A program made the translations under genes and the position numbers. The notes beneath the pieces were generated by a model. The model saw only the letters and a list, made by a program, of their open reading frames with translations. It had not been told where the DNA came from and did not search any database. A DNA stretch of 36,850 nt, from the IMG/VR virus record IMGVR_UViG_3300005731_000099, positions 1 to 36,850 of that record; one strand, 5' to 3'. This DNA comes from a virus. Positions 3,877 through 36,850 of this stretch are shown piece after piece (the first letter of the stretch is position 1; every line of letters starts with the position of its first letter).

Positions 3877-4051
3877 TACGGTAGCAGAACTATACGGATT
3901 TAACCACGTTAAACTAAGAGGGGTTACACCTGATGAACTATTAAGTAAAAGAGTTAAAGAGGTTAAGGATATGTTTAATAGGTCTGTAAAGAGCAGTAAA
4001 TGGTTTTGGACTGATAATGGTTTATGTATTAAAATTATATTGAATGAGTAA
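3866..4051 (+). CDS. Hypothetical protein, 61 aa
   Basis: This helical small protein contains GVTPDELLSKRVKEVKDMF and a Trp-rich end (KWFWTDNGLCIKIILNE). It overlaps both the previous gene (11 bases) and the terminase small subunit gene (8 bases), so it belongs to the same transcription unit. Function is unknown. Confidence 0.5.
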   Translation: MLYNTVAELYGFNHVKLRGVTPDELLSKRVKEVKDMFNRSVKSSKWFWTDNGLCIKIILNE

Positions 4052-4508
4052 CCTAACAGATAAGCAAGAGAAGTTCGCACAGCTAGTAGTTAAACTAGGG
4101 AATCAATCAGAAGCGTATAGACAAGCGTATGACGTTACAGACCCTAAAGCGGATTGGATACCATCTAAGGCTTCACACTTAATAGCTGAGGACAATATTA
4201 AGGCAAGGATTCAAGAGATTAGAGACGGTGCAAAGGCTAGGAATCAAATAGACTTAGATACTATTGTAAGAGGGCTACTAAAGATAGTTGACCAAGCGGA
4301 TGAGGTCTTTGACTTAGCTAACTTAAAGGACGCTTCTAAGGATGAGACTAGACGGTTCTATAGGTTAATGAGTCAGACTAATAACAGTCATAAGATAGCA
4401 GCTTATAAAGAGATAGCTAGGTTATTGAAGCTAGATGATCCTGAAGCGGATAAAGGAGGTACTACTAATGTGACTAACTTTTACTTTAACGAAAAGAGTA
4501 ATGATTAA
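4044..4508 (+). CDS. terS: Terminase small subunit, 154 aa
   Basis: The N-terminus follows the Terminase_2 pattern: LTDKQEKFAQLVVKLGNQSEAYRQAY, then a helix ending ASHLIAEDNIKARIQEIRD. This is the DNA-binding helix-turn-helix of phage small terminase subunits. The middle is helical and likely mediates ring assembly, and the C-terminus (TNVTNFYFNEKSND) may contact the large subunit. It recognises the packaging site on phage DNA. Unusually, the large subunit gene lies almost 4 kb downstream, beyond a sugar-transferase island. My certainty about the family is high. Confidence 0.85.
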   Translation: MSNLTDKQEKFAQLVVKLGNQSEAYRQAYDVTDPKADWIPSKASHLIAEDNIKARIQEIRDGAKARNQIDLDTIVRGLLKIVDQADEVFDLANLKDASKDETRRFYRLMSQTNNSHKIAAYKEIARLLKLDDPEADKGGTTNVTNFYFNEKSND

Positions 4509-4641
4509 AATATTTACACAGCCCTTACTAATTGTGGTAGGGATGCCATTTATAGTATTAGGATTTATAGGCAGGATAATGTATGAAGCTATAGAGTTCG
4601 GTATTGAACTTGCTAATGACTTTTTTGAAAGATATGATTAA
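4501..4641 (+). CDS. Small membrane protein, 46 aa
   Basis: The frame encodes MIKIFTQPLLIVVGMPFIVL and a following amphipathic acidic tail (YEAIEFGIELANDFFERYD), so one membrane helix is expected at residues 8-25. It overlaps the terminase small subunit gene by 8 bases and the next glycosyltransferase gene by 8 bases, which supports translation. Function is unknown. Confidence 0.5.
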   Translation: MIKIFTQPLLIVVGMPFIVLGFIGRIMYEAIEFGIELANDFFERYD

Positions 4642-5662
4642 AATACTATACGTAGGGTATCAAGGTAGCGGTATATTTAACTATAGACTAATGCCACATA
4701 ATTACTTAGACCCTAATAAGTTTGAAGTACACCATACGCCAATGATAGATACTGGTAAGGACTTAACAGAGGATTTAAAGCCATACGACATAGTAGTATT
4801 TAACAGACTCGTAGCATCTCACAAAGGTAAGGACTATACAGATAAGACTATAAACGAGATTAAGGCAGCAGGGTGTAAGCTGGTTATTGATGTAGATGAT
4901 TACTGGCAGTTACCAAAGTACCACGACTTGCACAAGGAATACGAAAAGAGTTTCAGAATACGTATGGTTAAATGTCTTAGGGCTGCAGATATTGTCCTAT
5001 GCGCTACTCCTTTTTTAAGGGATAAGGTATTACCATACAATAAGAACGTCCATGTAATTAAGAACTGCGTAGATTATAGGGATAGGCAATGGACGTGGAG
5101 TGACACTAAAACACCAAGCGATAAGTTAAGGGTAGGCTATACGGGTGCAGCACACCACTTAAAAGACATTCAAAGTATAGCGGATGACTTTAAACAGATA
5201 GCTAAGTTAGACGTTGAATTGAATTATTACGGATTTGCACACCACAAAGAAGCGTATGAGATGTGTAAGATAATGTCTGATAACGGCAATAACAAAAACT
5301 TTGATGCGTACCCTAGTTTAACTGCTGAATGTTACGGTGCTTTTTATACTAGGATAGATGTACTAATAGCACCACTATTTAAGGATGAGTTTACTAGGTG
5401 TAAGTCTGAATTGAAAGCTGTTGAAGCTGGTTATAATAGATGTGCGTTTGTAGGTTCTAATCAAGAGCCTTATACTTACTTATGTAATGAGTACAATAGC
5501 CATTTAGTTAATCCTGGAGAGTGGGCAGATGCTATAAGTGATTTAATGAATGAGGATAGACGTAAGGAGTTAGCAGGTAATTTATTTGCAGATGTGAGTA
5601 AGGAGTATGATTTAGATAATGAGGTAGGTAAACGTGCAAGACTTTATGAAGAGTTATTATGA
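4634..5662 (+). CDS. GT4-like glycosyltransferase, 342 aa
   Basis: The protein has the two Rossmann-like halves of a GT-B enzyme. The N-terminal half begins MIKILYVGYQGSG and contains LVIDVDDYW and DIVLCATPFLRDKVL. The C-terminal half begins LRVGYTGAAHHLKD and includes SELKAVEAGYNRCAFVGSN, where the family's nucleotide-sugar-binding E-x7-E region lies, and the family-typical NPGEWADAISDLM. It probably transfers a sugar from a nucleotide donor. ATG at 4634 is preferred over an upstream TTG (4604) because the Rossmann strand begins at once. Acceptor is unknown: virion protein, DNA or host glycan. Confidence 0.75.
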   Translation: MIKILYVGYQGSGIFNYRLMPHNYLDPNKFEVHHTPMIDTGKDLTEDLKPYDIVVFNRLVASHKGKDYTDKTINEIKAAGCKLVIDVDDYWQLPKYHDLHKEYEKSFRIRMVKCLRAADIVLCATPFLRDKVLPYNKNVHVIKNCVDYRDRQWTWSDTKTPSDKLRVGYTGAAHHLKDIQSIADDFKQIAKLDVELNYYGFAHHKEAYEMCKIMSDNGNNKNFDAYPSLTAECYGAFYTRIDVLIAPLFKDEFTRCKSELKAVEAGYNRCAFVGSNQEPYTYLCNEYNSHLVNPGEWADAISDLMNEDRRKELAGNLFADVSKEYDLDNEVGKRARLYEELL

Positions 5663-5813
5663 TTTAGAGCAGATGTATCCCGTAGTAGAGTATCATAATT
5701 TAACTCAACGATTCCTGCTAACTAACATCCCTTACTTTATGATTGAGGGCGTTATAATGTACGGTGGTTATAATCTACACAAATACGACTTAGGTAAAAT
5801 ATATTTAAATTAA
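5646..5813 (+). CDS. Hypothetical protein, 55 aa
   Basis: This Tyr-rich small protein (MKSYYDLEQMYPVVEYHNL, PYFMIEGVIMYGGYNL) lies between two glycosyltransferase genes. It overlaps the former by 17 bases, and its stop shares a base with the next ATG (TAATG). No family is recognised. It may be an accessory of the glycosylation island. Confidence 0.5.
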   Translation: MKSYYDLEQMYPVVEYHNLTQRFLLTNIPYFMIEGVIMYGGYNLHKYDLGKIYLN

Positions 5814-6520
5814 TGAGAACAGCAGTAATACTAAATACTATAAACAGATTCCACCATACTAAAGTAGCTTTAGATGTAACCTTGAATAATGCAGGTGCAG
5901 ACTTTGATTTATTCTGGTGGGATAATGGAAGCTCTAACGATAGGATAAAAGACTTAATTAAGGGATTCAATCCTGTATGGAGTTGTGAGGCTGCTAAGAA
6001 TGTAGGTAATCCACCAGCTTACAATGTCATGCTAAGACTTGTTAAGGAGCAAGAGTATGATTATGTAGTAGTGATTGGATCAGATTTAATGCTACCTAAT
6101 AATTGGTTAGCGTTGTATAAGCAGGTACATGAGCTATCAGGCAATAAGGGATTACTTGGTTATGATTGGGGGTTACTTCAAGATGATAAAAGCGTGGCAT
6201 CATTCAACGGTTTTGAGTTGTTTAAATGTCCCTTTGTATTTGGCACGTGGTTCTTTAGTTCTGAGCTATTAGATACGGTTGGTTACTTTAATGAAGCGTA
6301 TAAGATGTACGGAAAATGGGATAGTGATTTTAATTACAGAATAACTAAGAGCGGGATAGATAGTTATTACTTACCTGTTAGATGTTTACACTTAGTAGAT
6401 AGTAATGAGCGCACGTCTGAGTATAGAGCGTTTAAGGATAGGAACTTGAAGGCTAACGAGGAGGTGTATAAAAAGCAGATAGAATTGTATGAGTTAAATA
6501 ATAATTACTATATTGCATAA
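5813..6520 (+). CDS. GT2-like (GT-A fold) glycosyltransferase, 235 aa
   Basis: The N-terminal strand MRTAVILNTINR is followed by DNGSS (37-41), typical of family 2 nucleotide-sugar binding. The metal-binding DxD position reads GSD (89-91), as in some GT2 enzymes. WDSDFNYR (169-176) sits where the catalytic E/D-D motif is expected, with H193 nearby in the usual CLHL segment. It is predicted cytoplasmic, with no membrane helices. Together with the flanking GT4 and GT9 genes it could build a short glycan. The acceptor cannot be read from sequence. Confidence 0.75.
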   Translation: MRTAVILNTINRFHHTKVALDVTLNNAGADFDLFWWDNGSSNDRIKDLIKGFNPVWSCEAAKNVGNPPAYNVMLRLVKEQEYDYVVVIGSDLMLPNNWLALYKQVHELSGNKGLLGYDWGLLQDDKSVASFNGFELFKCPFVFGTWFFSSELLDTVGYFNEAYKMYGKWDSDFNYRITKSGIDSYYLPVRCLHLVDSNERTSEYRAFKDRNLKANEEVYKKQIELYELNNNYYIA

Positions 6521-6528
6521 AAAAAGAC

Positions 6529-6927
6529 ATGAACAAAGCAGAAGAATTAATAGATCAAGCGTTGAGCCACATTGATAAAAATGAGTTATCTCAAGCGTAC
6601 GGAAAAGTCCTGTCACTAAAAGAATCCCTCACACCGCAACCCGAAAGCGAATTAAAACGCCTTTACTTGTGGCTAATGGATGAGAACAGAGAGAAAGCAA
6701 ACACGGCTTTTACTTCTGGAGAGTTGAGGAATGTAGCGAGGGAGATTGAGTATAGGCTAGGTAAGCAATCCGAAAGTGAATTGATTGAGTTTCTTGAAAA
6801 GAATAATATGCAGTCATTAATGGGGTATTACGGACACGCTAAAGCACTTATATTTAATGATCCTATTCTTAAAGTTTTAACTAAATTCAGAGAACACCAA
6901 CAAACCAAGACAGATGAAACTAATTAA
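6529..6927 (+). CDS. Hypothetical helical protein, 132 aa
   Basis: This is an all-helical, acidic protein (EELIDQALSHIDKNELSQAY; LIEFLEKNNMQSLMGYY). Its C-terminal QQTKTDET and underlying DNA are repeated at the end of the 35860 gene product. Both copies lead into a gene starting with ATGAAAC inside the repeat. Function is unknown. Confidence 0.6.
   Translation: MNKAEELIDQALSHIDKNELSQAYGKVLSLKESLTPQPESELKRLYLWLMDENREKANTAFTSGELRNVAREIEYRLGKQSESELIEFLEKNNMQSLMGYYGHAKALIFNDPILKVLTKFREHQQTKTDETN
6898..6920 (+). repeat. 23-base direct repeat, copy 1 (copy 2 at 36247-36269)
   Basis: The 23 bases are identical to 36247-36269. In both places they encode QQTKTDET at the C-terminus of one gene and contain the ATGAAAC start of the next. 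This places the same gene junction before two different downstream genes. Confidence 0.7.
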
Positions 6928-7069
6928 GAAATACGAGAAAAACAGATATTTAATATTTGACTTATTGCCATCTATAACAATTATTAAGGATGGTCACGTC
7001 AAAAAAACGACTATGATTTTCATTGCGTGGTTTATTTGGCAAATTGATATTAAACTTAGAGACAGATAA
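6914..7069 (+). CDS. Small protein with one hydrophobic segment, 51 aa
   Basis: The frame encodes a basic N-terminus (MKLIKKYEKNRY) and a hydrophobic stretch (TTMIFIAWFIWQIDI) that may insert in or lie on a membrane. The start lies within the 23-base repeat and overlaps the previous gene by 14 bases. Function is unknown. Confidence 0.45.
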   Translation: MKLIKKYEKNRYLIFDLLPSITIIKDGHVKKTTMIFIAWFIWQIDIKLRDR

Positions 7070-7213
7070 AACCATCACAAAGGGATAAAACAATAGTTAA
7101 TGACGGATAAAACAATCATAATTTTCTTTACATGACATTAAGCTAGTGTAAAGAATAACGGAATAATTTAACATGATAAATACATCAAGGGTAAAAATAA
7201 GCAAAAATTACCC
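7066..7213 (+). other. Non-coding region with iteron-like repeats and two inverted repeats
   Basis: Three copies of ATAAAAC(C/A)AT occur at 7066-7075 (the first overlapping the end of the 51-aa frame), 7085-7094 and 7107-7116. A perfect 9-base inverted repeat follows, TTCTTTACA (7124-7132) and TGTAAAGAA (7147-7155). A second is GGGTAA (7189-7194) and TTACCC (7208-7213). The stretch lies just upstream of the GT9-like gene. It could be an operator region, a replication origin or an untranslated leader. No convincing gene is seen in it. Confidence 0.5.
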
Positions 7214-7239
7214 TCGTACACATTCACTTATTTAAAGAC

Positions 7240-7959
7240 ATGAAACTAACAGACAAAGAATTTTACATAGAACAAGATAAAGATTTTGGTCTTGGTAATT
7301 TCATTAACTGCACACCGACTATAAAAAGGATATACGATTATTGTGGATATAAGATACCATGCTACTTCAATAGTGATTATGTCAAGGAGTGTTATACTAA
7401 CAGCCCTTACATAGAGGTAATAGATAGTCCTAAAGGTGTGCGTCTGTTTGGTAGTGAGTTGATATGTCGAGAGAATAATATGCCAGATTATCTATACATT
7501 CAGATTCAAGTATTAGGAAGTATAGACGAGAACACACACACTTTTATAGATGACGTAGAGCCTTTAGAAACTAACAGCGGTGTGTTCATAAATGGCAGCG
7601 GTAATGAAGATATATCATACACTAATCTAAAAGCGATAGATAATGATACAATGATGTATCTAAAATCTAAGGCTGATTTAATAGGAACAGGAAGCAAAGA
7701 AGATAGAAAGCGCAATATATTTAACGGATTCTATGGAGACATAAGGACATCACTAGCGTTAATAAAAGGTGCTAAGTTTGTTATATCTAATGATACGGGA
7801 TTATATCACGCTGCTGCCGCTATGAATAAAAAGCAGTTAGTACTATGGAAAGACACAAAGATAACTAAGAATCTAGTGCCTAATAAGAATTGTAATTACG
7901 CAAACAAATACGAATGGAAAGAGAAAATAGATGCGTTCCTTTTAGAGTATATGGACTAG
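7240..7959 (+). CDS. GT9-like (heptosyltransferase-type) glycosyltransferase, 239 aa
   Basis: Near the N-terminus, GLGNFINCTPTIKRI matches the G-x-G-N-x3-x-x-P acceptor-side loop of family 9 enzymes. Near the C-terminus, SLALIKGAKFVISNDTGLYH (171-190) matches the A-x-x-F-x-x-x-D-(S/T)-G-x-x-H donor-binding signature (N184, D185, H190). At 239 residues it is shorter than host ADP-heptose transferases (about 330-350), so it is compact or trimmed in the interdomain region. It follows a repeat-rich gap and overlaps the next gene by 46 bases. Confidence 0.7.
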   Translation: MKLTDKEFYIEQDKDFGLGNFINCTPTIKRIYDYCGYKIPCYFNSDYVKECYTNSPYIEVIDSPKGVRLFGSELICRENNMPDYLYIQIQVLGSIDENTHTFIDDVEPLETNSGVFINGSGNEDISYTNLKAIDNDTMMYLKSKADLIGTGSKEDRKRNIFNGFYGDIRTSLALIKGAKFVISNDTGLYHAAAAMNKKQLVLWKDTKITKNLVPNKNCNYANKYEWKEKIDAFLLEYMD

Positions 7960-8426
7960 AGAGGTCTGGTACTAATTTAATGGAGTGGATAGTAAGAGAG
8001 CATTTTAACCCTAACTATGAAAGGATAGACGTTATAGGTAATAATATACTAATGCGTAAGTATAGAGAAAAGCAGAGCCTAAAGCACACCCTGCCTACTT
8101 GTATAAATGATAAGAATATAGTAATGTATAAGCCTTTTGAACAATGGGTGGAGAGTTGGAATAAGTATTATAAACGTGGAGACAATTACATATTAGGTGG
8201 AGATGTAGGATGTAGTAAGGAGGTTTATGATATGTACTTAAATACAGCGATAGAGTACAATTTAAAGCCTAATGATTTAAGTTTCTTATTAATTAACTAC
8301 AATGACTTAATGGATAACTACGAGTCTGTAATTAAAAGGATAGCGGAGTATTTAGAGTATGATTTAAAAGAAATTAAGCCGATGCCTACTAAATGGATGG
8401 GTACAAACATGAAGCCTATTGAGTAG
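7914..8426 (+). CDS. Sulfotransferase-like protein, 170 aa
   Basis: Residues 12-24 (VYGLERSGTNLME) match the 5'-phosphosulfate-binding P-loop of PAPS-dependent sulfotransferases (G-x-x-R-S-G-T). Later helices (KPFEQWVESWNKYY) and LLINYNDLMDNYESVIKRIAEYL follow the family's C-terminal pattern. It is short for the family (usually 250 or more). Sulfotransferases are uncommon in phages, and with three glycosyltransferases it suggests a sulfated glycan. The long overlap with the upstream gene leaves the start uncertain, but no other start precedes the P-loop. Confidence 0.65.
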   Translation: MERENRCVPFRVYGLERSGTNLMEWIVREHFNPNYERIDVIGNNILMRKYREKQSLKHTLPTCINDKNIVMYKPFEQWVESWNKYYKRGDNYILGGDVGCSKEVYDMYLNTAIEYNLKPNDLSFLLINYNDLMDNYESVIKRIAEYLEYDLKEIKPMPTKWMGTNMKPIE

Positions 8427-9633
8427 AGATATACACATAGAAGTTACGCCCGTATTCACTAAACTATGGGAAGCCCTTAACAATCCAGACGTTAGGGGCA
8501 TTGTGTTAGAGGGGTCTAGTAGATCATCTAAGACGTGGAGTATCTGCCAAGCTATCATAGCATACGGTCAAGCAAATCCTGGTATTAATATTATAGCAGC
8601 ACGTCAGAAATATACATGGGTAAGGTTAAGTATCTTAGACTCATTCGGAAAGGTTGTTAATAGTACGGGTATGGATTTAAAGCTAACTAAAACGCCTTTC
8701 AGTTACAAATGGGGTAATGGTAGCAAGATGCATTTTGTCGGCTTAGATGACGCTCAAAAATATCATGGTGTTGAGACAGACCTAGCTTGGATTAATGAAG
8801 CAATAGAAGCAGGGAATGATGACTTTGACCAAATAGAACAGAGACAAGCAGAGGGCGGTAAATGGATATTAGATTACAATCCTAGTACGGATGACCATTG
8901 GATATACACTAAACTATTAAAGCGTTCGGATGTGGTTTATATTCATAGCACGTTTAGAGACAATCCCTTTATAAGTACAGAGGCAAAGAATAAGATACTG
9001 AGCTATGAGCCTAACGAGTTTAATATCGAGCAAGGCACAGCGGATGAGTTTAAATGGCAGGTTTACGGATTAGGCAAAAGAGCAAGGCGTGAGGGTGTTG
9101 TATTTACTAACTGGTCAACGTGTAAAGCTATGCCTACAGATTATCAATGGGAGTGTTACGGTATGGACTTTGGATTCACTAACGATCCTAGTACACTCAT
9201 TAGGGTAGTTTATGCAGACGGTCAATTATGGTGCGAAGAGTTATTTGGAGAAACTGGAATGACTAACCAAGATATAGGCAATAGATTAAAAGCGTTAGGA
9301 GTAACAAGGGAACATGATATAGTAGCAGATAGCGCAGAACCTAAGAGTATAAAAGAAATTAAGTTACAAGGCTTTAGAATACGTCCAAGCGCTAAAGGAC
9401 AAGATAGTATTAGAGCAACTATCGACTTAGTGCAACAATACAAGGTTAACATACTAGAGGGTAGTGAGGAGTTTATAAAAGAGATGAATAACTATGTATG
9501 GCAAAAGGATAGGGCGTTAGGTAAGTACAAAGATAAGCCAATAGATGACTTTAACCACCGTATTGATCCGCTAAGATATGTAGCAGAGTACAAACTAGGA
9601 AAAAAGAATAGCGGTAAATATCACGTACATTAA
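8419..9633 (+). CDS. terL: Terminase large subunit, 404 aa
   Basis: The ATPase domain shows a Walker A loop at residues 32-39 (GSSRSSKT) and Walker B LAWINEA (122-128, catalytic E127). The RNase H-like nuclease domain shows D250 (YGMDFGF), D304 (IVADSAEP) and D377 to D383 (IDDFNHRIDP). It powers DNA packaging through the portal and cuts the concatemer. Length and motifs fit the PBSX/Terminase_3 type. The start is TTG at 8419 because no ATG occurs before the Walker region, and it overlaps the previous gene by 8 bases. The family call is firm. Confidence 0.93.
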   Translation: MSRDIHIEVTPVFTKLWEALNNPDVRGIVLEGSSRSSKTWSICQAIIAYGQANPGINIIAARQKYTWVRLSILDSFGKVVNSTGMDLKLTKTPFSYKWGNGSKMHFVGLDDAQKYHGVETDLAWINEAIEAGNDDFDQIEQRQAEGGKWILDYNPSTDDHWIYTKLLKRSDVVYIHSTFRDNPFISTEAKNKILSYEPNEFNIEQGTADEFKWQVYGLGKRARREGVVFTNWSTCKAMPTDYQWECYGMDFGFTNDPSTLIRVVYADGQLWCEELFGETGMTNQDIGNRLKALGVTREHDIVADSAEPKSIKEIKLQGFRIRPSAKGQDSIRATIDLVQQYKVNILEGSEEFIKEMNNYVWQKDRALGKYKDKPIDDFNHRIDPLRYVAEYKLGKKNSGKYHVH

Positions 9634-11958: not shown

Positions 11959-12483
11959 GTGATAGATTACAAAGAGATAGAAAAGTTAGGTAGAGACGTA
12001 CAAGACGTTGTGGGTAAGGCAGCAGCAGATTCCCTAAGTGAATTAGCTACTAAGTTAATAGACATCTTGAAACGTAACGCACCAGACAACAGCGGATTCT
12101 TACAGCAGACAATTAGCGCACTACCATTAAGTCAAACTCCTGACGGCATTAAATTAGACATCACATGGGCTGACTATGGTACGTACATAGATGAGGGTGT
12201 TAGAGGCGCAAAGACTACATACTCAGAATCAACTAGCAGTCCATTCAGTTATAAATCTAAGATGCCACCAACAAACTTTAGTACAATAGGAGGGCAATCA
12301 TTAGCGCAATATGCAGAGTCTAAAGGTATTAGTCCTTTTGCAGTTGCTAAGTCTATATTTAACAAAGGGCTTAGAGCGACTAAATGGGCTACGAATAGTT
12401 TAAGTGGTGCGGAGTTGGAAAGGTTAATAGATGAACTAGCAGTTGAGTTCGTTAAGAGTTTTGAATTTAAGATAGTAAAATAA
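11959..12483 (+). CDS. HK97 gp10-like tail completion protein, 174 aa
   Basis: The start helix is followed by ELATKLIDILKRNAPDNSGFL, which resembles the HK97-gp10 family (basic-hydrophobic helix, then APxxTGxL), and by a strand with WADYGTYIDEGVRG (Y-x-x-Y-V-E-x-G in the family). Such proteins sit at the head-tail joint or complete the tail. GTG at 11959 is the only start near the family N-terminus and lies just behind late motif B. Its stop overlaps the next ATG (TAATG). Confidence 0.65.
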   Translation: MIDYKEIEKLGRDVQDVVGKAAADSLSELATKLIDILKRNAPDNSGFLQQTISALPLSQTPDGIKLDITWADYGTYIDEGVRGAKTTYSESTSSPFSYKSKMPPTNFSTIGGQSLAQYAESKGISPFAVAKSIFNKGLRATKWATNSLSGAELERLIDELAVEFVKSFEFKIVK

Positions 12484-13718
12484 TGGCAATAACAATAGAG
12501 CAACAAAACAGCGGTATAGTTAACGCATACAATCCAATAGACTATGTAGCAAGTTCTACCAATACGGGGCAAACTTCATTCAAGTACATAGCTGACTTAT
12601 ACATAGATGGTGTAAATGTACATAGATACTTAATACCTGCAGACCCTAATTTTAGTGAGTGCTTTGTAAATACCTCTGATATTGTGCAGTCTTATTTGTC
12701 TTTTAACTTTGATGCTACGCTATCCGATACGGTTGTAGAGGAGAACGGTAATAGTATAGTAGAGACTTATATCGAGTTCGGAGAGCAGTACGATGTAGCT
12801 GGTACAATAACAGACTTCACAGCACTAGCAACTACTAACACAATTAAAGCGTTAAACGGTGCTTTAGACTTTGAAAGCTATATTGATTATGACTATACAG
12901 ATTATGAGATAGACGGGACTGGTGCTAATAAGTTTCTAACTAACGCACCACTAACTAGGACGGTATCTGATACTATGAATCATTGGCTTTATGCGATTAC
13001 AGATGAGTCAACTATCTACCCTCATTTATTTGTGATACGAACCTATGATATTAACGGAACACTCAACGGACAATTTCAGATAAACAATAATAACAGAGGA
13101 GGCGGTGCTTTAGAAGATGATCATATTAGAATAGCAAGTGGTTTAAATATTAATAATCTAACCGTTGATGCAGTTGTAACGGGTGCGACTCCAATACTAG
13201 ATGCTGATGTTTATAGCTACTCTATACAGATGTATGATACGGGCATAACCTCCACAAGTGAACTTAGAACCTTTAATATAGATTATGATTGTCTAGGGTT
13301 AGATAAGTATGTGCTACACTTTCAAAACGCACTAGGCGGCTTTGATAGTTTTAGCTTTGATTTAGTTAATAGGTTTGAATGGGATAAGGAGACACAGAAT
13401 TACATGAGTGCAGGGTACACACGTTCAAGCGGTGCGGTTAGCAGAGCCACAAGCACACACCAAAGAAAGTCCTATAATACCACCGTTAAAAAAAGCATAT
13501 CATTGAAAAGTAATTGGATAACAGAGGCAGAGTCGTTATGGCTTAGGGAGTTATTTGATAGCCCCGTTATCTATTTAGAATATCCTGATAATACTATGAT
13601 AGCGGTTAGTGGTATTAGCCTAACACAAAAGACGGAAGATATTACCAAAGTAGACAAGCTATTTAATTTAGAATTAGTAGCGGAGTATTCATTCGATAGT
13701 TACAGACAGAAGTGGTAG
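12483..13718 (+). CDS. Tail structural protein (distal tail/baseplate type), 411 aa
   Basis: This beta-rich protein contains YVLHFQNALGGFDSFSFDL, RKSYNTTVKKSISLKSNW and a closing DKLFNLELVAEYSFDS. This layout recurs in Bacteroidota phage tail proteins located before a large hub protein. The role is inferred from this pattern and from its place between tail completion and the 969-residue protein. No enzymatic motif or signal peptide is seen. Small overlaps with both neighbours indicate one transcription unit. Confidence 0.6.
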   Translation: MAITIEQQNSGIVNAYNPIDYVASSTNTGQTSFKYIADLYIDGVNVHRYLIPADPNFSECFVNTSDIVQSYLSFNFDATLSDTVVEENGNSIVETYIEFGEQYDVAGTITDFTALATTNTIKALNGALDFESYIDYDYTDYEIDGTGANKFLTNAPLTRTVSDTMNHWLYAITDESTIYPHLFVIRTYDINGTLNGQFQINNNNRGGGALEDDHIRIASGLNINNLTVDAVVTGATPILDADVYSYSIQMYDTGITSTSELRTFNIDYDCLGLDKYVLHFQNALGGFDSFSFDLVNRFEWDKETQNYMSAGYTRSSGAVSRATSTHQRKSYNTTVKKSISLKSNWITEAESLWLRELFDSPVIYLEYPDNTMIAVSGISLTQKTEDITKVDKLFNLELVAEYSFDSYRQKW

Positions 13719-16622: not shown

Positions 16623-18212
16623 ATGAGTTACAGTACGCAGAGATCTACAATAATTTATTCAGACTACCAATCAACTTTAGCAGATACGGCAGAAATTGAC
16701 AGCGGGTGGTTAGATATGGAGGGCGTTGATAAAGTCCAATTTAGCGGCTATTCGGACACAGCTGGACTAACAATGACTATAGAGTCAAAAGTAAACAACA
16801 CAACAGCACCCACGCAATTAAGCACACCTGTTACTTATACAGACGGTACTTTTTATTTGTTTAATGTAATTTGCCGTCAAAGGTGGATGAGATTTAAATG
16901 GACTAATAACACAGGAGGAGTAGTTAATGATGCTTCAATGGAGATTAAACAAACCTTTGGAAGCTCAGACAAATTAAGTGTGTTTCCTGTTGGTGTTAAT
17001 CCTAGTATATTTAGCCAAGCGGCATTGGTGCAATCTATAACAAGAGGTAAGCAGCCCGATGGCGATTATGTAGCAGTTCCAGCAGACGGTACGGCGGTTA
17101 GCACAAGTAGTACGTTAACAGCTTCTAGTACTTATACTTCAAGTTGGGTAGATAGTGACGGGTTTAATGAAATAGATTTGCTAATAGCTACAGACGTTGA
17201 GAGCCAAGAAGATGGAATAGTTATAGACTTTACAGACGATGCAAACGCTGGAAGCCCTACAGTGATACTATCAAAAACGTTTAGTTATAACCAAGTGGAT
17301 ATAGACAGGGGGTTTGTGCGTATTAAGTTAGCTCCAGCCTTAGACGGGTTTAGAATTTCATATACAAACGGTGCTACTGGTCAATCTAGCTTTTTTCTAG
17401 TTGCTGATCTAAGAACTAACGGAACGCCTCAAAGGCTTAATGCTGGAGGGTCGCAAGTTGTTAGTGATTTTGGTACAGAGGTCGCACTAGGGGAAGTGCC
17501 GAACTATACAATCGGTGATAAATTCGGGCGTAACTCAGACATAGACACAGGCTCAACGCCAGAGGATATAACAGAAATAGGAGGCATTTATGCTGGTCAG
17601 CCTTTATCATTCACGCCAGAGACTATTGAGGTATTTAGTGCTAGTGTGAATGATACGGCGGTAGGAACAGGGGCAAGGACGGTAAGGATAACAGGCTTAA
17701 AGACATCATCATCTAAGGAGTATGAGACAGAGGATTTAACATTATTAGGGGCAGTAGCCGTAACGTCTAGTAGTAGTTGGTGGCGGGTTAACAAGGTTGA
17801 AGTATTAACAGCTGGTAGTGGTGGTAGTAATGCGGGTATAATTACTTGTAGAGCAACTAGTACAACATCAGTAGTATTTGCTAAAGTACCTGTTGGCTAT
17901 AATCAAAGTCAGATAGCCGCTTACACCGTTCCTGATGGTAAGAAGATGATAATCAAACGTGCAAGGGTTGGAATAACGAGAGCTAACGGATCAGCTGGTA
18001 GTGCAACTATATGCTTACTTAAAAGACCAAGCGGAGGCGTGTTTAATTGTATTAGGGCTTTTGAACTTCAAACAGGGGCAGGTACCAATGTTACTTTTGA
18101 TGGTGGTATTATTTGTGAAGCTGGAACAGATATAAAATTTCAAGTAAAAGACGTATCAGACAATAACACAGTAGCAGAGGCAGGTGTTGAATATTATTTA
18201 ATTAACGCATAA
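16623..18212 (+). CDS. Virion structural/tail fibre-like protein, 529 aa
   Basis: This Ser/Thr/Gly-rich beta protein has no enzymatic motif. Residues about 345-440 (VGTGARTVRITGLKTSSSKE, WWRVNKVEVLTAGSGGSN) follow a G-A-R-T-V-x-I-x-G-L ... R-x-N-K/R-V ... G-x-x-N-x-G-x-I pattern seen in capsid- or tail-associated proteins of marine phages. The C-terminal part (YTVPDGKKMIIKRARVGIT) looks like a jelly-roll-like domain. It starts two bases after the hub gene and touches the tape measure start. Receptor binding is possible but not shown. Confidence 0.6.
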   Translation: MSYSTQRSTIIYSDYQSTLADTAEIDSGWLDMEGVDKVQFSGYSDTAGLTMTIESKVNNTTAPTQLSTPVTYTDGTFYLFNVICRQRWMRFKWTNNTGGVVNDASMEIKQTFGSSDKLSVFPVGVNPSIFSQAALVQSITRGKQPDGDYVAVPADGTAVSTSSTLTASSTYTSSWVDSDGFNEIDLLIATDVESQEDGIVIDFTDDANAGSPTVILSKTFSYNQVDIDRGFVRIKLAPALDGFRISYTNGATGQSSFFLVADLRTNGTPQRLNAGGSQVVSDFGTEVALGEVPNYTIGDKFGRNSDIDTGSTPEDITEIGGIYAGQPLSFTPETIEVFSASVNDTAVGTGARTVRITGLKTSSSKEYETEDLTLLGAVAVTSSSSWWRVNKVEVLTAGSGGSNAGIITCRATSTTSVVFAKVPVGYNQSQIAAYTVPDGKKMIIKRARVGITRANGSAGSATICLLKRPSGGVFNCIRAFELQTGAGTNVTFDGGIICEAGTDIKFQVKDVSDNNTVAEAGVEYYLINA

Positions 18213-22690: not shown

Positions 22691-23605
22691 ATGAAAAAAT
22701 TTAATTTTGATTTTGACGTTTCCGCTTTAAGTAATTATACAGAAGAACCAGCGGAACTCATTAGAAAAGCGGTAGTAGGTGCTAAAACTATGATGCACGT
22801 TACGCATCAGACAGGTATTAAATCTGCTGAAACTATTAATTATATCGGTGGAGACATTACTTTCCAAGCTGGTGGCACTTGCGGATTTAACGCATCAGGT
22901 ACTAGAGATATCTCACAACGTACTATTACGGTATGTAAGATTAAGGTAAATGAGGAAATGTGTATGAAAACACTAGAGTCTAAGTTTACTCAAAAATTAC
23001 TTTCTCCAGGATCTACTTATGATGAGTCTGATATCCCTTCAATCTTTATTGATGATATGTCTGAGAAGATTGCTTATGAAGTTGAGAAACTTTTGTGGAG
23101 AGGAGACACCGCAGGTTCTGGTAACTTAGCGTTATGTGATGGGTTTAATAAACTTATTGATAACTCTACAGGTGCTGTACGTTCATCTAGTGGTACTGCA
23201 TTTACTGGAAACGAAGTTGCTGTAATTAAGCAATTTGTTTTGGATATTCCAGAAGAAATCAGAGACCAAGCAGGATTAACTGTATTTATGGGTAGAGATT
23301 GGTTTGATCAATACAACCAAGCTATCTTCTCATTGAATAACAGATGGGATGCACCAGAAGATGGAACAGACGGAAAAGTACTTTATACTAATATTCCGAT
23401 TGTAGTAGTTCCAGGATTGACAGGACAAAGCAGAATCGTTTGTACTTACAAAGAGAATATGATTGTAGGGCAAGATTTAGAAAATGAAGAAGAGCAGTTT
23501 GATATGTGGTTCTCTAAGGATGATGATATCCACAAATTGAAAGTTGAGTTTAAACTTGGTGTTCAATTTGCGTTCCCTGAGTTAGTAGTTTACTACGCAG
23601 AGTAA
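22691..23605 (+). CDS. Major capsid protein (HK97 fold), 304 aa
   Basis: Length, position after scaffold and several segments fit an HK97-fold major capsid protein: YIGGDITFQAGGTCGFNASG, FIDDMSEKIAYEVEKLLWRG (spine helix) and LTVFMGRDWFDQYNQAIFS (P-domain), then the C-terminal VEFKLGVQFAFPELVVYY. There is no long N-terminal delta domain, in keeping with a separate scaffold gene. A GC-rich hairpin follows and may limit read-through. Confidence 0.85.
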   Translation: MKKFNFDFDVSALSNYTEEPAELIRKAVVGAKTMMHVTHQTGIKSAETINYIGGDITFQAGGTCGFNASGTRDISQRTITVCKIKVNEEMCMKTLESKFTQKLLSPGSTYDESDIPSIFIDDMSEKIAYEVEKLLWRGDTAGSGNLALCDGFNKLIDNSTGAVRSSSGTAFTGNEVAVIKQFVLDIPEEIRDQAGLTVFMGRDWFDQYNQAIFSLNNRWDAPEDGTDGKVLYTNIPIVVVPGLTGQSRIVCTYKENMIVGQDLENEEEQFDMWFSKDDDIHKLKVEFKLGVQFAFPELVVYYAE

Positions 23606-27491: not shown

Positions 27492-27608
27492 ATGGGTAAA
27501 AAATACCAGAGTAAAAAAGAAATTGAAAAGAAGTTAGATAAATACTTTAAGTCAAAGAATGACCACACTAAATCAAATAGTAAACAGAATACAAGTAATA
27601 GCAAATAA
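27492..27608 (+). CDS. Lys/Asn/Ser-rich small protein, 38 aa
   Basis: ATG at 27492 opens a strongly basic low-complexity peptide (MGKKYQSKKEIEKKLDKYF, then KSNSKQNTSNSK). It overlaps the next gene by 50 bases in another frame. It may be a real small virion or DNA-binding peptide, or a chance frame in A-rich DNA. Confidence 0.35.
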   Translation: MGKKYQSKKEIEKKLDKYFKSKNDHTKSNSKQNTSNSK

Positions 27609-28776
27609 CCATTACCAAACTCATACGTTTGATAGCGGTACTATTTCGCAGTTCCTGGAGAAAGACCAAGCAGGAGATATAATATATCCTTGTGTTTACT
27701 TAGAGGAACAAGATCCCACAAGTACGGGCGGCGCTATGTATTTTAACTTTAATTTGTGGATAGTTGACTTAGTGCAAAAAGATAGAACTAACGAGCGTGA
27801 GGTAAAAAGTGATTGTCTGCAAATAGCTACAGACTTTATCTATTTAATGGAACGCTTTGAATTTATAGGAGAAAGTGGAGAGGCATTTTTTTACACTAAT
27901 CAAACGGTTAACTATCAATTTCTAACAGAAGATTTACAGGACAGGATAAGCGGAGTACGTGCATCATTCTCATTAAAACAGCCTTTTAATTTTAACAAAT
28001 GTGCTACACCAATAACAGATAATACTAATAATTGCGTACCCGTTACACCTTATAATATTTTCAGTACTTTATTTGATGGTGTTAACCAACTATTAAAGGT
28101 AGATAGTTCTGCTTATTATAGCTATGATTATGATAAAGAAATGGCTGTTAGCTTTTGGTTTAAAACAACAGAGTCAGGGATACAGGCGTTTGTAAGTAAA
28201 TGGACTAGCGTACCACCTGTTAGAGGGTGGCAGGTTATAATGACATCAGGCAAAATCAGGTTCCAGTTTGCTAATAGTGGCGGTAGTAAATTAGCGTTAC
28301 AAAGCATTAACACTTATAATGACGGAGACTGGCATCATTGTTTATGCTATAAGTCTACAAGTTCTTTAGCTGGCGCAATGGTTATGTATGTAGATGGTGT
28401 AGCAATATCTACCACCGTAACAGATAACACGCTAGGAACACTAACAACTATTAACAGCGTTGAGGCTACGGTGGGTGCTATACAACCTACTCCTAGCTTG
28501 TTTAATAACGGCAATCTTAAAGACATTTCTATCTATGAAGATTACACAATGGCGTTAAGCGATGCGTTACAAATATACAATAGCGGAGAGCCTACAGATT
28601 TAACGTCTTTAACTAGCAATTCTGGTATGGTAGCTTGGTGGAGGTTAGGAGATAATGCTAGTGATAACTTTAATAGTGATGTAGCTAACGAGTGGAGATT
28701 TTACAATAGTGTAGATAGTAAGCATTTAGACTCATCTAATATGGTTCTAGGTAGTAGGGTTGCAGATGCTCCGTAA
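27559..28776 (+). CDS. Tail terminator-like protein fused to a LamG/concanavalin-like domain, 405 aa
   Basis: Residues 1-160 (TLNQIVNRIQVIANNHYQTH, YPCVYLEEQDP, FNLWIVDLVQKDRTNEREV) resemble small tail terminator/completion proteins. Residues about 165-370 resemble a LamG domain: YNIFSTLFDGVNQLL, KEMAVSFWFKTTESG, NDGDWHHCLCYKS, and AMVMYVDGVAI. LamG domains often bind glycans or serve as virion decorations. The fusion would display a lectin-like fold at the top of the tail. There is no frame break between the parts. Confidence 0.65.
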   Translation: MTTLNQIVNRIQVIANNHYQTHTFDSGTISQFLEKDQAGDIIYPCVYLEEQDPTSTGGAMYFNFNLWIVDLVQKDRTNEREVKSDCLQIATDFIYLMERFEFIGESGEAFFYTNQTVNYQFLTEDLQDRISGVRASFSLKQPFNFNKCATPITDNTNNCVPVTPYNIFSTLFDGVNQLLKVDSSAYYSYDYDKEMAVSFWFKTTESGIQAFVSKWTSVPPVRGWQVIMTSGKIRFQFANSGGSKLALQSINTYNDGDWHHCLCYKSTSSLAGAMVMYVDGVAISTTVTDNTLGTLTTINSVEATVGAIQPTPSLFNNGNLKDISIYEDYTMALSDALQIYNSGEPTDLTSLTSNSGMVAWWRLGDNASDNFNSDVANEWRFYNSVDSKHLDSSNMVLGSRVADAP

Positions 28777-36739: not shown

Positions 36740-36850
36740 ATGAAAAATAGAAACATACCACATAAAGACGATTGGGCTACACCACCATATTTTTATGATG
36801 AATTAAACGGTGAATTTGATTTTAACTTTGACCCTTGCCCGTATCAGCAC
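36740..36850 (+). CDS. N-terminal part of phage Dam-type DNA adenine methyltransferase (partial)
   Basis: The 37 codons to the window end include KDDWATPPYFYDELNGEF and DFNFDPCP, the signature start of phage N-6-adenine methyltransferases (D-x-W-x-T-P ... F-x-x-D-x-C-P/A). The enzyme moves methyl from S-adenosylmethionine to adenine N6, often to protect phage DNA from host restriction. The gene runs off the window. Its likely end is at 1-54. It lies between attC-like elements E3 and E1. Confidence 0.85.
   Translation, partial: MKNRNIPHKDDWATPPYFYDELNGEFDFNFDPCPYQH

Follow-up and report, generated by a model that had tools for sequence, protein, structure and literature searches.

A glycosyltransferase island with an exchangeable gene slot between the terminase genes of a phage lineage

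Phage-encoded glycosyltransferases are known from several systems. In mycobacteriophages such as Che8 they glycosylate the virion (Freeman et al. 2023, as cited in PMC11256854 and PMC12619734). In T4 and RB69 they glycosylate the DNA, which needs hydroxymethylcytosine from a thymidylate synthase homologue (PMC6024577). The marine flavobacterial Cellulophaga phage phi18:1 has a glycosyltransferase among its structural genes that is conserved in its genus (PMC11946311). Genes of the Sulfotransfer_3 family are carried by OM43 phage-type and Synechococcus phages, and the authors of that study regard sulfotransferase function in phages as unclear (PMC10580990). The stretch analysed here, the window, is the entire IMG/VR virus record IMGVR_UViG_3300005731_000099, 36,850 bases in length. 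Between its terminase genes, terS and terL, lies an island of glycosyltransferase genes and one sulfotransferase-type gene (ST1). It has a conserved core and a variable slot, and the slot contents are best read as having been swapped between related phages as whole-gene modules.

Phage glycosylation loci are thus already known, and the exchangeable sulfate, acyl or sugar slot beside terL is a variant on them. As in the mycobacteriophages, the glycosyltransferases are phage-encoded and the proposed acceptor is a capsid or tail protein. Unlike in Maravista, a Che8 relative whose genes are placed near the 3' genome end in these citing papers, the island is between terS and terL. Unlike the Che8-type systems as those papers present them, it has a sulfotransferase or acyltransferase in an exchangeable slot, and it is known from its genes alone. 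With T4 and RB69 it shares GT-B type enzymes; the thymidylate synthase homologue is absent here. The phi18:1 locus differs in being a single gene, without slot or sulfotransferase, and PMC10580990 describes neither an exchange slot nor a linked set of glycosyltransferases for its phages. The Manatee Spring podovirus MW202801 has a GT2 relative (28%) in a sugar-modifying run just past the capsid region. It differs in this position, in its associated genes (radical SAM-like, PhyH, methyltransferase, NodB) and in having no annotated sulfotransferase. A literature search found no paper on sulfated phage glycans.

The island, its borders and the stretches within it are as follows.

4044..4508, + strand: terS, terminase small subunit, left border of the island (Terminase_2, 4e-10; phrog_51, 3e-17)
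4501..4641, + strand: putative small open reading frame of 46 aa, hydrophobic, overlapping the terS stop and the GT4 start (read from the sequence)
4634..5662, + strand: GT4-type glycosyltransferase, core (phrog_7162, 6.5e-41; orthologues at the same site in relatives)
5634..5813, + strand: small open reading frame between GT4 and GT2, overlapping the GT4 end (3' part resembles the small frames of relatives)
5813..6520, + strand: GT2-type glycosyltransferase, core (phrog_2456, 4.2e-10; orthologues in relatives)
6529..6927, + strand: open reading frame of 132 aa, first gene of the variable slot (no family match)
6914..7069, + strand: open reading frame of 51 aa with a hydrophobic stretch, variable slot (no family match)
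7070..7239, + strand: AT-rich intergenic stretch in the slot, a 170-base gap ahead of GT9 (no clear RNA structure; fold z = -1.4 against shuffles)
7240..7959, + strand: GT9-type glycosyltransferase, variable slot (PF01075, 3.3e-8)
7914..8426, + strand: ST1, sulfotransferase-type, variable slot, overlapping GT9 and terL (PF00685, above cut-off)
8419..9633, + strand: terL, terminase large subunit, right border; its first bases are the exchange breakpoint in relatives (Terminase_3, 5e-20)

The first-pass annotation had placed GT4, GT2, GT9 and a sulfotransferase-like gene between terS and terL, and this is confirmed by Pfam and phrog matches and by orthologues. The small open reading frames, the 170-base gap, the spread of the island through the lineage and the exchangeable 3' slot are additions to it. 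For GT4, the phrog_7162 profile covers residues 51-340, and Pfam Glyco_transf_4 is sub-threshold only. For GT2, phrog_2456 spans residues 53-228, and PF00535 is sub-threshold in the window and above cut-off in the homologue of a distant phage, L018. Because intact orthologues are found at the same site in related phages, with 49-51% (GT4) and 53-55% (GT2) amino acid identity, these two calls are more than chance. The match of GT9 to PF01075 scores 33.6 bits against a cut-off of 22 and is limited to the C-terminal donor-site signature; heptosyltransferase models match the same part. GT9 had zero matches in phages or viral contigs. In the gap ahead of GT9, a scan for promoter and terminator patterns gave counts below the shuffled mean, with no excess.

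A search with a two-sequence terL alignment identified eight relatives (L010 to L017), with terL 66-67% identical. All eight have GT2 upstream of terL, and seven have GT4 upstream of GT2, the contig of L012 beginning too late to show GT4. The core of GT4, small open reading frame and GT2 is fixed in the lineage, and the island is not a one-off insertion. The term 'inserted' in the first-pass annotation, if taken as a recent single event, is therefore not supported; turnover is confined to the slot that follows GT2. The comparison with relatives lacking the island, also proposed there, could be made with more distant phages, the closest eight all carrying island genes. In the island-free phages that were compared, the gene preceding terL abuts or overlaps it. 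Of these, the Bacteroides and Parabacteroides relatives bear out the claim that terS is usually next to terL, the abutting gene of the latter being annotated only as hypothetical. In the Nonlabens phage P12024S it is a small open reading frame that directly abuts terL, with no glycosyltransferase there. A recent horizontal insertion marked by base composition was considered and rejected: G+C and GC3 (G+C at third codon positions) of the island genes are near the values of their neighbours and not clearly foreign, the slot genes being slightly lower in G+C.

The small open reading frame at 5634-5813 has an 'IEGV...KIYLN' ending that is kept at the same place, right before GT2, in five relatives (L010:933-1082, L013, L015, L016 and, slightly further upstream, L017). 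It appears to be a conserved small protein.

The slot differs between these phages. The window has the two small open reading frames, GT9 and ST1. L010 and L016 have a hexapeptide acyltransferase and a 206-aa protein that is GT-A-like by eye, with no family match. A diverged copy of the GT-A-like protein together with a second sulfotransferase, ST2, is found in L011, L013 and L014, and ST2 only in L012, L015 and L017. Scans with PF00685 found sulfotransferases in the slot only, and none in L010 and L016. With so few sequences, several of them near-duplicates (L011, L013 and L014 are identical in GT4), the counts of slot types are not frequencies.

The joints between core and slot can be seen at the DNA level. 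L016 and L013 are 93.7% identical through L016:1685, which is the last base of GT2, and the alignment resumes at 2786, six bases into terL, with 92.0% identity. Between these points the one stretch that aligns, at 65.5%, is in the GT-A-like gene. The alignment of L013 with L015 is interrupted by a clean gap that holds this gene, a simple presence or absence. For L016 and L010 the slot genes are 83-84% identical in DNA and GT4, GT2 and terL only 73-76%. Breakpoints at the GT2 end and the terL start, together with this mismatch in identity between slot and core, suggest that modules have been exchanged between conserved anchors. Among close relatives the ratio of nonsynonymous to synonymous substitution rates is roughly 0.03-0.1 for GT4, 0.03-0.08 for GT2 and 0.08-0.13 for ST2; it covers these three genes, ST1 and GT9 being without a close homologue. 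Such low ratios indicate that GT4, GT2 and ST2 are working proteins under purifying selection.

Ahead of GT4, where contigs extend, there is a terS-like gene, with a Terminase_2 match in L017 and homologues of that gene in L022 and L024. An unrelated family is present in L013, L015 and L021, where the terS role is assumed from position. The presumed terS thus belongs to two unrelated families in otherwise close phages, which suggests that the left island border has been exchanged too. Upstream of terS in L017 (L017:1794-4191) are a ParB-like gene (sub-threshold) and then a DUF3440 / PAPS-reductase-domain gene.

ST1 matches PF00685 with 24.9 bits, above the cut-off of 22, and PF13469 with 25.9 bits, just under the cut-off of 27. 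A PF00685 scan of the entire record found a single place, the ST1 site, with 24.1 bits. The P-loop GLERSGTN (residues 14-21) aligns with GGRSGTS of the L018 sulfotransferase and GCAKTGTT of L013. The 3'-phosphate site segment KPFEQWVES aligns with RPISERIAS of L018, with the Ser retained, and a C-terminal block also aligns (30% identity, pairwise E 7e-5). The L018 protein is clearly a sulfotransferase (Sulfotransfer_3, 1.7e-10), and these three aligned parts support the assignment of ST1. ST2 is above both sulfotransferase cut-offs and about 20% identical to ST1; a profile comparison of the two, made with shallow alignments, gave no significant score. Searched alone, ST1 had zero matches in 50,697 phage records; its own peptides had zero matches in viral contigs, and there was none convincing among PDB sequences.

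The window opens (1-54) with what looks by eye like the tail of a Dam-type methyltransferase gene, and a short Dam-like frame starts at its 3' end (36740-36850; PF05869 E = 0.019, sub-threshold). Since both ends apparently belong to one gene, a nearly complete genome that is circular or circularly permuted is probable, on the basis of this weak match and of ends inspected by eye. Among the other genes, those for replication, the portal, a capsid-like protein (22691-23605), head protease, tape measure and amidase could be identified; further candidate virion proteins are encoded at 12483-13718 and 16623-18212. A tail-region protein (27559-28776) has a concanavalin A-like (Laminin_G_3) domain and is a candidate host-glycan binder. 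The nearest named phages by capsid and portal (23-26% identity) are the seawater Nonlabens phages P12024S/L, so a marine flavobacterium is the likely host. Alignments of terL and GT4 against bacterial genome contigs gave zero confirmed matches, and thus neither a prophage nor a firm host. Tyrosine integrase is absent from the nearly complete record (serine integrases were not searched for). The phage is lytic-looking, with the island inside the late block of packaging and structural genes.

Similar genes are found near head genes in more distant phages. In L018 (terL 27% identical), GT4 is directly ahead of terL, and a few genes downstream of terL there is a run of acyltransferase, sulfotransferase and GT2. 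The order in L025 is a GT9-looking gene (no family match), terS, methyltransferase, GT4 and terL. Directly after the capsid gene, L032 and L033 have GT4, an epimerase, a gene of no recognised type, GT2 and a methyltransferase-like gene. The phAPEC8-type relatives of GT4 belong to a run of four consecutive glycosyltransferases near replication genes, and the GT4 family is therefore not always tied to head genes. In the distant terL relatives L002 (1667-2530) and L004 (7156-7995), a PP-loop-like gene ('SGGKTSSYxA', no Pfam match) is directly upstream of terL and is preceded by a small gene, possibly terS.

It is possible, at about even chances, that these late-expressed enzymes make a short glycan whose terminal decoration can be exchanged, for which virion proteins would be the most likely acceptor. 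GT4 and GT2 would place the first sugars and the slot genes would finish the glycan. In the window phage, GT9 would add a sugar and ST1 would transfer sulfate from host-made 3'-phosphoadenosine-5'-phosphosulfate (PAPS); the slot enzymes of the relatives would instead add acyl groups, sugars or sulfate. Less surely, the glycan would be attached to one or more virion proteins in the cytoplasm, either ahead of particle assembly or while it proceeds, and an exchange in the slot would give the particle a different charge and surface chemistry. A virion protein as acceptor, itself at about even chances, is favoured by the position of the island, by the lack of a flippase or integrase and by the mycobacteriophage precedent. 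A more tentative extension is that the lineage sulfates its own virion glycans (the sister phages acylating or further glycosylating theirs) and switches between these states by whole-gene exchange, which would make the slot a phage counterpart of bacterial antigen-switching loci.

Several points weigh against this proposal. The family match of ST1 is marginal and its assignment is the weakest in the island. A Lys takes the place of the usual 3'-phosphate-binding Arg. The predicted structure of ST1 had a pLDDT (predicted local distance difference test score) of 36 alone and 58 when modelled with four relatives, and the top solved structure for the latter, SULT2A1 (Z 4.0), was not above background. 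Genes for making nucleotide sugars or PAPS were not seen in the island, which means that the host has to provide the donors. The late-block position is a circumstantial pointer to the acceptor. GT4, GT2 and GT9 enzymes of such size also make lipopolysaccharide (LPS) cores, which leaves room for the host surface. The first-pass annotation had proposed that the set builds and sulfates a glycan. The building is supported by the families, by their conservation and by the same gene classes in relatives, and both the glycan-building enzymes and the exchange slot are well supported; sulfation by this gene set we infer as probable, and the sequence does not settle between virion and host surface.

A role at the host surface is less likely than one on the virion. 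The cassette would remodel LPS core or capsule during infection, blocking superinfection or the binding of progeny to debris, and the slot would mirror the diversity of host glycans. GT9 is of the heptosyltransferase family, the hexapeptide enzyme of the relatives most resembles LpxA and NeuD-type acyltransferases, and phages are known to encode enzymes that modify host surface glycans (PMC11990801). Yet the same paper regards full modification of the surface as probably futile during lytic infection, the island is placed among late genes, and neither a GtrA flippase (PF04138; controls matched) nor a tyrosine integrase is present in the nearly complete record. It is improbable that the island genes are ordinary morons, unrelated passengers in a permissive spot with no common pathway. 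The unrelated PP-loop-like gene in the same spot of L002 and L004 and the rapid turnover of the slot would fit such passengers. However, all replaceable genes with a recognisable or suspected family are of sugar-modifying classes, purifying selection acts on the fixed GT4-GT2 core, and the same classes occur together again in L018.

Glycosylation of the phage DNA against restriction, with slot exchange following host defences, is the least probable of these explanations and very unlikely. GT4 is distantly related (26-30%) to paired phAPEC8-type glycosyltransferases, whose acceptor is not established here, and phages encode a diverse range of DNA glycosyltransferases (Pyle et al. 2024, as cited in PMC12619734). 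Against this, a thymidylate-synthase-type hydroxymethylase (PF00303) was found neither in the window nor in four related records, with controls matched. There were zero matches to the TET-associated glycosyltransferase (PF20691; one control matched) and zero to a TET/JBP oxygenase, for which no control genome matched either. The only DNA methylases seen are the Dam-type fragment of the window and a C5 methylase in L019. The earlier argument from the absence of pyrimidine hydroxylation genes is strengthened by this, in a record that is nearly complete and with working controls.

Three divergent sulfotransferases share a genetic context in which glycosyltransferases lie next to terL, and within one lineage the sulfotransferase is swapped for an acyltransferase module. 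This gives a testable hypothesis for the role of phage sulfotransferases, which have been reported without a proposed function (PMC10580990). If the virion is the acceptor, virion chemistry would be under diversifying exchange in environmental phages. If it is the host surface, this would be an unusual route of surface remodelling, in phages without a flippase or integrase.

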